A stretch of 47,414 nt of DNA, taken from Dehalococcoidia bacterium (GTDB taxonomy: Bacteria > Chloroflexota > Dehalococcoidia > Lucifugimonadales > UBA2985). Location: positions 1-47,414 of the forward strand of contig JACVQK010000007.1 in the NCBI GenBank assembly GCA_015661155.1, in the 5' to 3' direction. Under the pieces are notes generated by a model that ran no database searches, had not been told where the DNA came from, and saw only the letters and a program-made list of their open reading frames with translations. A program made the translations under genes and the position numbers. Below, piece after piece: positions 18,746 through 47,251 of the stretch (within the stretch, counting starts at the first letter, position 1; each line of letters opens with the position of its first letter).

Positions 18746-18994
18746 CTAAGAGCGAAATAGCTCTTCCAGTAGAGTTGAGCGGTCAGTCTCTAGATAGCTG
18801 GCAACATCGGCGAGGATGGTGCTGAGGGTCCCGACCTTCAGTGGGGAATGCCTCGGTATGCTGATGTGGTGCTCTTTGCCCTTGATCCTGGAGGTCAGCC
18901 GTAAGTGACTTCCTGTTTGCCTCGTAACATCATATCCGTAATTGTGGAGTAACGCTGCCAACTCCGTGCCCGAAAGGTCACGAGGGAGCTTCAA
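18746..18994 (-). CDS. hicA: HicA-type mRNA interferase toxin
   Basis: An 82-residue protein of the HicA/YcfA family beginning with TTG at 18994. The start is set by overlap with hicB: the hicB stop TGA and the TTG share the sequence TTGA. The protein opens LKLPRDLSGTELAALLHNYG and carries the catalytic GSHLRL histidine motif of the double-stranded-RNA-binding-like fold, and IPRHSPLKVGTL. HicA cleaves mRNA until bound by HicB. A longer frame to 19066 overlaps hicB entirely and would add unrelated residues. Codons after the core (ASYLETDRSTLLEELFRS) form a short helical tail. Confidence 0.85.
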   Translation of the reverse strand: MKLPRDLSGTELAALLHNYGYDVTRQTGSHLRLTSRIKGKEHHISIPRHSPLKVGTLSTILADVASYLETDRSTLLEELFRS

Positions 18995-40281: not shown

Positions 40282-41660
40282 CTACTCCCCCATATAACCT
40301 CTAAGGGTGTAGTAGTTCACCACGTTTCTGAGGGCCCGGGCACCGTTTTGAAAGCCGTGAAAGGCGGGAATGCCCTCCTGAGCAAACCTTTTGTCTATGG
40401 CCTCCCGGGCGGCGGGTTCGAGCCGCGGGATGGAGGCGTAGACGATCGCGGCGATGGGTTTGTGGGACTCTGCCTGGGCATCCTTGATGATCTTTATCCG
40501 TTCGTCGAAGAACTTCGCGTTGTTACCCAGGCGAGAGCCCGGGAACTCCACCACCACCAGGTTCAGGTTCTCGTCCTTGCTGAGGATGCTCACAATCTTG
40601 TCCTGGTGTTCGGGGCTGCCCTGAACGGGGTTGACGTAGTTCCCCCCTATCATGTTGAAGAAGGAGCCCATCTCCCGGTAGGAGTGCTCCGTGAGGGGAG
40701 CCACCTTGAAGCCAGCCTTGGAGAAGACGTTGGCCATGTCTGTAGAGTGGCCTCCAGAGCCCGCCAGAAGGCCCACGTTGTACCCCGCAACCGGGGGAAA
40801 GTGGGAGAGGGCCTTGACGGTGTCGATCATCTCCTCCTGGCTTTCGATGGGTGTAGCGCCGCACCGGGTTATCAGGGAGTTCCAGATATCCTCTCGGATA
40901 TAGGGGGTGCCGGTGTGGGCCGCCGTGGCCCTGGCAGCGTCCTCGGTGGTTCCCACCTTCCATACCAGGACGGGCTTCTTCTTGCACGCCTCCCGAAGGC
41001 TCTGGAAGAACCTCTGGGGATTCCGCAGTCCCTCGACGTACATCCCGATCACCTTGGTATCGGCATCCTCCACCAGGTAGTCGATGTAGTCGGGCACATC
41101 CAGGACCATGCCATTGCCCATGCTTATGCACTTGCTCATCTTGATGCCGTTGACGCTGGCCTCCATGACCAGGCCGGTGGACATGGAGCCGCTCTGGGAG
41201 ATGTACCCGAAGCTGCCACTCTCTCCGTAGGGCTCGCCCTCTGTATGCCTTATCCCCACGGCGGGGTTATACAACCCCATGCAGTTGGGCCCCATGATGA
41301 GGATCCCATACCTCGCGGCCAATTCGCTGACCGCGTGGTCCAGCCTGATCCCCTCTGGGCGCAGTCCGGTAAGAGCCTGGGGACCACCTGGCGTGGAACG
41401 GAGATGCAGACGTAGTCTATGGGTTCGGGAATATCCAGGAGGCTCTTGAAGTTCTTGACTCCCAGGGCCTCGGCTCCGGGCCACTCGTTCTCGTCGATGT
41501 TCACGTGGAAGACCTTGCCGTGGTTTTGATGAAAGGGAAGGTGCGCTTTGATCCATCGGAATTCGTTATGCCGGGCTGCTCCTATCACAGCCACGTTGCG
41601 GGGATTGAACCCCCGCTCTATTCTGGCCAGGGTTTCGGATTGCTTCATGACGTCGACCAT
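40282..41660 (-). pseudogene. Acyl-CoA synthetase (NDP-forming) alpha-type gene, frameshifted
   Basis: The 5' part starts at the ATG at 41660 behind AAAAGGAG and encodes the CoA-binding domain (FNPRNVAVIGAARHNEF, DYVCISVPRQVVPRLLPDCA, 20 residues). Near 41345-41375 the frame changes. The rest continues as PEGIRLDHAVSELAARYGIL and MGPNCMGLYNP to the stop at 40282, including the phosphorylated-histidine motif TAAHTG. About 17-19 residues that normally link the two parts (the VxxxAGF region) are missing. The full protein would be an alpha subunit of ADP-forming acyl-CoA synthetase; no ATP-grasp beta subunit is adjacent. Everything except the missing block is well preserved, so either the break is recent or it is an assembly fault. 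Confidence 0.82.
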
Positions 41661-42061: not shown

Positions 42062-43108
<1,047 letters not shown>

Positions 43109-44794
43109 TTAGATTTGCCAGATTTCATTTGCCAGTTTGGCAAAGCGCTGCTGTCTCTGCTCGATTGTATCTTCGTTCCACTCGTTAAAATCAGTCATCA
43201 ACTCTCTAGTAATATGTATTTCTGACTTCTTGTAGTGTGACTCACACTTCTCGCCGAAGCTTCTATTTGAAGCCGCTTTGTTTAAGGGCTTGCTTAGGAG
43301 TGTGAGGTTCCCAAGTCTAGCAGACAATTGCCCAATGTCTTGGGGAGGTAAGCCAGTCGTAGCGATCCATTCTTTCGAAGGGGTTTGAGGTAAGATATGT
43401 TCAACATCAACTCGCCCCCATGCTATGGTTAACTCCTTGGATGTCTTGTGCTCCTCAAGTTTGCGCAATATGTACCGAACATGAGCAATTGGTGAGTCTG
43501 TCAGTGCCTGAAACCCATCCACGAAATCAGGAGCCTGAGCTAGTAGCATCTTTGCCTTATCCTGAAGCCCCTCTAACGAACGGTTGTTCCTTAGCTGGAT
43601 TGCCCATTCGGAATAGCTACGTTCAAGCCTGTTGGGATTCAAGTTCCCGACTATCGAGTATCTCATTGTCAGGCTCTCAACAAGTCCCACAACTTTGCTA
43701 AACTCCTTCGGCACAACTCTACTGGCTGCCATGAGCAGAGGCAAATGCTGAGTTATCCCCATCAACGCAAGGTCTCGGAGGGTAAGAGCTTGTGGGTCCC
43801 CTTGCTTTGGTGAGACGAGTTGAACGTAGATTTGGGCGTCGCTTATCAGTTCGTCCAAGAAAGTCCTGGGGTTCTTTTTGGAACTCACGAGATACGCCTT
43901 GATGGTTCCATACAGCTTCCTTTGGGTGACAACTCTGTAGTGAGACAGCCAATAATGCCTGAGAAACCTAGGTATAGACACGCCTTCCAGCGTTGTTGCC
44001 AACTGTTGCCACAGAACCGTTACACTGTCCAATTCCCCAGACACCCGTTTGGCCGCTAGAGAAAAGAGGTGGTTCTTAAGGAGATCGGCTATAGACAGGT
44101 CAAGACCACGGTCGTTCAAGGTTTCGAAGATTATGTATGCCTGATCGTCAGACGTAACTAGTGTCGAAATAAGCGTTACTTTCCTAGTAACGAATGAAGC
44201 GATGCTGATTAGATTCTCTATAGCCTCTTCTTCCGACTGTCCATTTATCTTCTCCTCGATCCGCCGCGACAGAAGGTCATAGGCATTTCTAACGTAGTTC
44301 TTCTGGGGTCTGCCCCGTCTGCCTGCTGGTCTTCTTATACCGGGAGCTTCCCTGTCGGGATCTGTAAGGGGCAATTGCACATAGTTATGAAAATCGTCAG
44401 CGTCAGCTGGGCCCAATGTAACAACGGGAGTTCTTGTACCGCGGAGGTCAGGGCGAAGGATATAATCATGGAGCTTATTCGCAACATCTTCGCGTTTGTG
44501 CTGAACGAGATGGTCTCGTAGCACAGATAATAAGATGGTGAGTGTAGCTAGGCGCTGTTGGCCATCGATCGTTTCTACGGCGTCGTCATCTGTTTTGCTA
44601 AGTACGAGTGCCCCTAGAAAGTAATCTTCCTCCCCTGATTCTGATGCCTCGAGGATATCTGTCCAAAGTTGGTCCACTTGCTGATAATCCCAGGAGTATC
44701 TACGCTGGTATTGGGGCACTCTGAAACGATTTGTGGCAGTGCCAAACAATTCCGCAATCGAGACATCATCAACAACAAATCTAGGATTTGCCAT
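43109..44794 (-). CDS. DUF262-DUF1524 (GmrSD-like) restriction-type protein
   Basis: A 561-residue protein starting at the ATG at 44794 behind GAGGAGGGG. The N-terminal DUF262 (ParB-like fold) has FRVPQYQRRYSWD and ETIDGQQRLATLTILLSVLR (20 residues), with the NTP-binding IDGQQR motif. The C-terminal DUF1524 carries the His-Me/HNH nuclease motif VEHILPQ and LGNLTLLSKPLNKAASNRSF (20 residues). GmrSD proteins of this type are type IV restriction enzymes attacking modified phage DNA, here in single-chain form. The substrate is not known. Base composition is clearly AT-richer than its neighbours, and the gene lies between direct copies of the gap start, both signs of insertion. Its start overlaps the upstream HicB-like gene by 14 bases. 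Confidence 0.9.
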   Translation of the reverse strand: MANPRFVVDDVSIAELFGTATNRFRVPQYQRRYSWDYQQVDQLWTDILEASESGEEDYFLGALVLSKTDDDAVETIDGQQRLATLTILLSVLRDHLVQHKREDVANKLHDYILRPDLRGTRTPVVTLGPADADDFHNYVQLPLTDPDREAPGIRRPAGRRGRPQKNYVRNAYDLLSRRIEEKINGQSEEEAIENLISIASFVTRKVTLISTLVTSDDQAYIIFETLNDRGLDLSIADLLKNHLFSLAAKRVSGELDSVTVLWQQLATTLEGVSIPRFLRHYWLSHYRVVTQRKLYGTIKAYLVSSKKNPRTFLDELISDAQIYVQLVSPKQGDPQALTLRDLALMGITQHLPLLMAASRVVPKEFSKVVGLVESLTMRYSIVGNLNPNRLERSYSEWAIQLRNNRSLEGLQDKAKMLLAQAPDFVDGFQALTDSPIAHVRYILRKLEEHKTSKELTIAWGRVDVEHILPQTPSKEWIATTGLPPQDIGQLSARLGNLTLLSKPLNKAASNRSFGEKCESHYKKSEIHITRELMTDFNEWNEDTIEQRQQRFAKLANEIWQI

Positions 44795-44960
44795 TTCCCC
44801 TCCTCTGAACCTCAAGGCAAAGGAGGATAGCCTCCTTTATCCGCTCAGTAAGCTCATCTAATGACCTGGCCTGGGTATGACAGCCCTTGAGCTGGGGAAC
44901 GGAGGCCGCAAAAAAGCCATCCTCGTCCTTTTCGATTATGACCGTGAACTCTTTAGCCAT
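44781..44960 (-). CDS. HicB-like protein coupled to the DUF262 gene
   Basis: A 59-residue protein of the HicB/UPF0150 type: FTVIIEKDEDGFFAASVPQL (20 residues) followed by GCHTQARSLDELTERIKEAI. It is the partial RNase H-like fold of HicB antitoxins without a DNA-binding tail. No hicA gene is adjacent; the following gene is the DUF262-DUF1524 nuclease, whose start it overlaps. It begins two bases after the stop of a 17-codon mini-ORF carrying the gap ribosome binding site. It may restrain or sense for the nuclease, or be the relic of a hicBA pair; neither is shown. Confidence 0.8.
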   Translation of the reverse strand: MAKEFTVIIEKDEDGFFAASVPQLKGCHTQARSLDELTERIKEAILLCLEVQRRGNGKS

Positions 44961-45016: not shown

Positions 45017-45028
45017 GGTGTGCCTCCT
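44997..45028. repeat. Direct repeat, right copy (second gap start)
   Basis: Matches 43056-43087 at 31 of 32 positions (A to G at 45005). Beyond the repeat, similarity to gap falls away, so only the start region was duplicated. Confidence 0.9.
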
Positions 45029-45423
45029 TAAGGTATGCGCGATGAGAATCTTAGATCGTTGCACATGGTGTCAAGGTACTCGCCTACCGTCTCGCCCCGT
45101 CGGGAGAGGGCGACACCTGGTGAAACGCCCTCAAAGCTGTTTTTTGTGATGAACCGGGGGATTGTCTCGGGGGCTGCGTAGCACTTGGCGGCAAAACGCA
45201 CATCCCACGTGGTGAGCCTGGCCGCATCCTCCAGAGAAGCCCCCTCCGACCAGTGATAGGCGGTGATCGCAGGGAAGGCAAGGATCAGCGCTGCGACAGC
45301 CAGCTTCAGGAGCCACTTGAGAAGCCTCCTGGCGAGGCTATCCCCCGAGGAGCCTGTGTCCTGGATATTCGCGCGGCCTTTTGATCTGCTCTTGCGGGGC
45401 TTGGGCTTGGCGCTCCGACTCAT
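45028..45423 (-). CDS. Small single-pass membrane protein, unknown function
   Basis: A 131-residue protein not assigned to a family. Residues 1-20 are very basic (SRSAKPKPRKSRSKGR), one hydrophobic helix lies near 35-56 (LLKWLLKLAVAALILAFPAI), and the rest (~75 residues) would be outside the membrane if positive-inside applies. Two cysteines (AAKCYAA, DTMCNDL) could form a disulfide. AGGAGG lies before the ATG. The stop TAA is part of the TAAGGAGG that forms the second gap-like ribosome binding site, so this gene may originally have been directly upstream of gap. Confidence 0.65.
   Translation of the reverse strand: MSRSAKPKPRKSRSKGRANIQDTGSSGDSLARRLLKWLLKLAVAALILAFPAITAYHWSEGASLEDAARLTTWDVRFAAKCYAAPETIPRFITKNSFEGVSPGVALSRRGETVGEYLDTMCNDLRFSSRIP

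Positions 45424-45467: not shown

Positions 45468-47251
<1,784 letters not shown>

Follow-up and report, generated by a model that had tools for sequence, protein, structure and literature searches.

A short open reading frame (ORF) resembling the antitoxin HicB, followed by a nuclease gene where hicA would be expected, raises the question of whether the two genes form a defense unit or have come to lie side by side by chance. The initial annotation of this DNA left three readings standing: the HicB-like protein as a control or immunity partner of the nuclease, the pair as an undescribed two-gene defense system, and the ORF as the relic left when the toxin gene of a hicBA pair was replaced. 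The window analyzed here is a 47,414-nucleotide stretch of contig JACVQK010000007.1 from a Dehalococcoidia bacterium, and among named relatives a Chloroflexi metagenome-assembled genome (MAG; L072) is nearest at this locus. Within the window, we confirmed that a 59-residue HicB-like ORF overlaps the start of a DUF262-DUF1524 gene by 14 bases (44781 to 44794). The gene order is eno, a small ORF, the HicB-like ORF (the hicB stump), the nuclease gene, and gapdh:

45468 to 46745, minus strand: eno (enolase), the left-hand landmark; ORF whose protein has an 84% identical counterpart in this position in genome G403
45028 to 45423, minus strand: 131-residue ORF separating eno from the hicB stump; assigned to no Pfam family and present once in the genome
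44997 to 45028, minus strand: 32-bp repeat upstream of the hicB stump, found by repeat search; duplicates the start of gapdh together with its ribosome-binding site, 31 of 32 bases identical
44960 (ATG) to 44781 (stop), minus strand: hicB stump, 59 residues plus stop; from the ORF list, PF15919, and alignment with hicB of the same family
44795 to 44805, minus strand: junction where hicB homology ends, with AGGAGGGGAA as the putative nuclease ribosome-binding site; from pairwise alignment with L066 (G403)
44794 (ATG) to 43109 (stop), minus strand: GmrSD-type (DUF262-DUF1524) nuclease of the HEC-06 family, 561 residues; from PF03235, PF07510, PADLOC HEC-06, and invariant columns
43056 to 43087, minus strand: other copy of the 32-bp repeat, found by the same search; here it forms the actual ribosome-binding site and first codons of gapdh
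42062 to 43075, minus strand: gapdh (glyceraldehyde-3-phosphate dehydrogenase), the right-hand landmark; ORF whose protein has an 85% identical counterpart in this position in G403

Elsewhere in the window, a CoA-binding/succinyl-CoA-ligase-like gene (40282 to 41660, minus strand) is split over two frames, with PF13380 in 41660 to 41253 and PF13607 in 41556 to 40285, reflecting either a frameshift or a sequencing error.

A full-length HEC-06 nuclease gene follows a truncated hicB

Of the two domains found in the type IV restriction enzymes GmrSD, BrxU, and SspE, DUF262 is expected to sense DNA and to use a nucleotide, and DUF1524 to make the nick or cut. The window nuclease carries both domains in the same order on a single chain, each over the Pfam cut-off (PF03235 GmrSD_N, E = 1.6e-34; PF07510 GmrSD_C, E = 3.9e-25), and conserves DGQQR (residues 77 to 81) in the N-terminal DUF262 domain and an HNH-type motif (VEHILPQ around H466) in the C-terminal DUF1524 domain. 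Among 13 aligned sequences, D77 to R81, N496, and N505 were invariant and H466 nearly so. The PADLOC HEC-06 model (PDLC04155) matched residues 11 to 560 (550 of 561 residues; E = 6.3e-125) and ranked above Orf5, SspE, and the type IV enzymes; SspE is among the solved relatives of the nuclease but only distant by sequence. The N terminus lies at the expected place and the alignment with relatives runs the full length, so that the gene, judged by its sequence, looks intact. At 48%, the G+C content of the nuclease gene is lower than that of the window (60%) and of eno and gapdh (66%). HEC-06 (Hma-embedded candidate 6) is one of the guilt-by-embedding candidates with reported antiviral activity and is presented together with single-gene systems (PMC12988326, citing the preprint of Payne et al. 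2024). The match to HEC-06 is full length and nothing notable differs in the protein; however, the window gene lies behind a hicB stump in a slot between glycolytic genes rather than in a defense island.

The HicB fold initially ascribed to the 59-residue ORF is present in its core but not at its end. The beta-beta-beta-alpha core is retained, and PF15919 (HicB_lk_antitox) matched over the cut-off (E = 7.8e-8) but only across profile positions 1 to 47 of 123. The ORF is related to the short HicBs (about 70 residues) of HicBA modules such as TTHA1756 (PDB 2yzt), which matched residues 2 to 53 (E = 2e-11). Missing is the C-terminal segment of the type F-V-G-V-Q-R-V (G-[VIL]-Q type), which is kept in 72 of 80 close HicB relatives; besides the window's, about five of these relatives are shortened to 54 to 62 residues. 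AlphaFold2 predicted the same three strands and helix for the stump and a full-length relative (mean pLDDT of 82 and 84, respectively), suggesting that the stump could still fold. In these models the C-terminal segment did not appear as part of the sheet but was predicted at low confidence and without a strand; a loss of folding therefore cannot be claimed. In two genomes, the HicB antitoxin is the C-terminal part of an in-frame fusion (L066 7225 to 7827 and L071 6952 to 7500); its N-terminal domain, roughly 130 residues long, contains YLPEGLP and has no convincing Pfam match.

Related genomes carry an intact hicBA module at the same locus

Genome G403, which shares its family with the window's genome, carries eno, hicB, hicA, and gapdh in that order; hicA begins on the hicB stop, and gapdh follows 36 bp further. 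The G403 HicB is 92% identical to that of the window over residues 3 to 52 and has about 18 additional C-terminal residues. The six closest HicBs of the order (G403, G424, G404, G415, G429, and G428) are all full length, at about 70 residues or more, and in all six cases hicA overlaps hicB or lies directly 3′ of it. Five further HicB-like genes occur in the window's own genome, and a hicA-like ORF comes after every one of them. At the window locus, the end of hicB and the entire hicA are gone: consistent with the initial annotation, no hicA-like stretch was found between the stump and gapdh, where a search for hicA remnants returned only chance matches, and none in the whole window was convincing (best E = 0.001; 27 residues at 18976 to 18896, 48% identity).

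Alignment with G403 places the end of hicB homology exactly at the predicted nuclease ribosome-binding site. The window gene tracks G403 hicB to codon 52 (...LCLEVQ), so that hicB homology comprises codons 1 to 52 of the stump. Past this point the window reads AGG AGG GGA AAT GGC AAA TCC TAG, which is the nuclease ribosome-binding site AGGAGGGG, its ATG, and the next codons in another frame; the last seven residues of the stump (RRGNGKS) and its stop thus come from nuclease sequence. The 14-base overlap is thus an incidental result of the join and does not reflect a designed coupling. G403 at the break point has AGGAAAGGAAATATCTGAAGAATCC, followed by ...LEFVGIQRVMV and hicA. The likeness of AGGAAAGGAAAT and AGGAGGGGAAAT suggests that the join may have formed at a short stretch of similarity. 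At the other end, the gapdh ribosome-binding site lies 21 bases past the nuclease stop.

Together, the eno-hicB-hicA-gapdh arrangement with its 92% identical HicB and the position of the break bear out the relic reading. We consider it very likely that the locus was a hicBA module in the eno-gapdh gap in which a HEC-06 nuclease gene has replaced hicA and the last ~18 codons of hicB. The part of hicB that remains shows no decay: across the 50 codons homologous to G403 hicB there were 14 synonymous and 4 nonsynonymous changes (dN = 0.035, dS = 0.77), and two of the four amino acid differences look, by consensus, like changes on the G403 side. The truncation is thus either recent or tolerated, or the stump is still being maintained in some way. 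The synteny, the break point, the intact nuclease, and the non-recurrence of the pair described below are observed here; the counterpoint to the relic reading is that the stump is undecayed and its core, as modeled, could still fold.

The hicB-nuclease pair does not recur among relatives of either gene

Conserved adjacency of the two genes was sought from both sides, its absence having been named beforehand as evidence against a two-gene unit. The nuclease set comprised 109 relatives (29 chromosomal within the phylum, at 27 to 35% identity, and 80 on viral contigs) and the HicB set 80 relatives spread over many bacterial and archaeal phyla. The flanks covered were 1.5 kb for chromosomal nucleases, 3 kb for nucleases on viral contigs, and 4 kb for HicB relatives, often shortened by contig ends, so that a more distant partner would be missed. 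Within these flanks, profile searches found HicB or HicA beside 0 of 109 nucleases, the sole match being the window itself, and the nuclease beside 0 of 80 HicBs. By comparison, hicA lay directly downstream of 52 of the 80 HicB relatives by the same kind of search, and some of the other 28 have hicA by tblastn. None of the papers covered by our literature search treats HicB together with DUF262. Neither the partnership nor the undescribed defense unit that had been proposed is upheld by these counts. In one cyanobacterial MAG, a 62-residue, C-terminally shortened HicB (L081 2334 to 2522) lies directly 5′ of an apparent type I restriction specificity subunit and is possibly another antitoxin stump before a defense gene.

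It is accordingly improbable that the stump now serves the nuclease as regulator or immunity protein, whether by binding through its core or by translational coupling through the overlap. The two genes do overlap on one strand, the core fold is kept in prediction without decay, and AAGGTG six bases 5′ of the stump ATG could act as a ribosome-binding site. However, the pair is confined to this locus among the relatives surveyed, the overlap consists of nuclease sequence read in another frame, the nuclease has a strong ribosome-binding site of its own, the conserved HicB C-terminal segment is gone, and HEC-06 is presented together with single-gene candidates (PMC12988326). A recruitment limited to this lineage, in which a truncated HicB that still folds has recently become a leader or regulator of the HEC-06 nuclease, is likewise improbable; if true, it would mark the birth of a new antitoxin-nuclease unit. 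It is also improbable that the join is an assembly artifact and that the real genome has an intact hicBA: the genome is a 1.8-Mb draft in 101 contigs with 3.65% estimated contamination, but both flanks match the G403 locus in the same order with the gapdh ribosome-binding site intact, and the nuclease is a complete ORF from ribosome-binding site to stop, so that an artifact would take two independent misjoins, one on either side of an entire gene.

The eno-gapdh gap is a recurrent landing site

Of 30 gapdh loci in the order, 21 have eno upstream and no hicBA, and in most of these the gap is short; G402, G400, and G401 are among the genomes in which eno is near gapdh and hicBA is absent, and the gap in G402 is 46 bp. 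The same gap holds hicBA in four other genomes (G403, G424, G415, and G428; loci L152, L154, L161, and L162), with an extra UPF0150 protein in G424. It holds a HEPN protein in G412 (L160) and a nucleotidyltransferase-HEPN pair in G430 (L165). In JACPQD010000092 (L090 3914 to 4582), a full-length HicB comes after eno, and a weak HEPN match below the cut-off occupies the position where hicA would be expected. In this bacterial order, the space between eno and gapdh is a site at which toxin-antitoxin modules land repeatedly.

Two of the insertions are bordered by direct duplications of the target, resembling long target-site duplications: in the window, the 32-bp repeat of the gapdh start, and in G424, a 49-bp direct duplication of the end of eno (94% identical; L067 7590 to 7638 and 8099 to 8147). 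No recombinase was seen with these duplication-flanked insertions between eno and gapdh.

Origin of the hicB-nuclease neighborhood

Returning to the replacement of hicA by the nuclease gene, we propose that the eno-gapdh slot first held hicBA and then took up the HEC-06 nuclease, an event that would have removed the toxin gene. What remained of hicB would be a stump whose stop codon falls inside the nuclease gene by accident, and we infer that the stump has lost its function. Because the nuclease gene most likely landed in the hicBA spot at the cost of the toxin gene, the stump and the nuclease are probably neighbors by accident and not a new defense unit. Transcription of the nuclease gene would probably be part of an operon running from eno to gapdh, and translation would start from the gene's own ribosome-binding site. 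The nuclease probably works alone, with its DUF262 domain expected to bind and hydrolyze a nucleotide and to sense DNA, possibly modified, and its DUF1524 HNH domain expected to cut; no step in this scheme needs HicB.

For the order, it is a minor finding in its own right that hicBA, HEPN-nucleotidyltransferase, and nuclease genes have repeatedly come to occupy the eno-gapdh gap. For the pair, the comparison keeps a chance neighborhood from being taken for a new defense system, and it points to how such chance pairs may originate: a defense gene lands in a toxin-antitoxin slot and an antitoxin stump is left in front of it.
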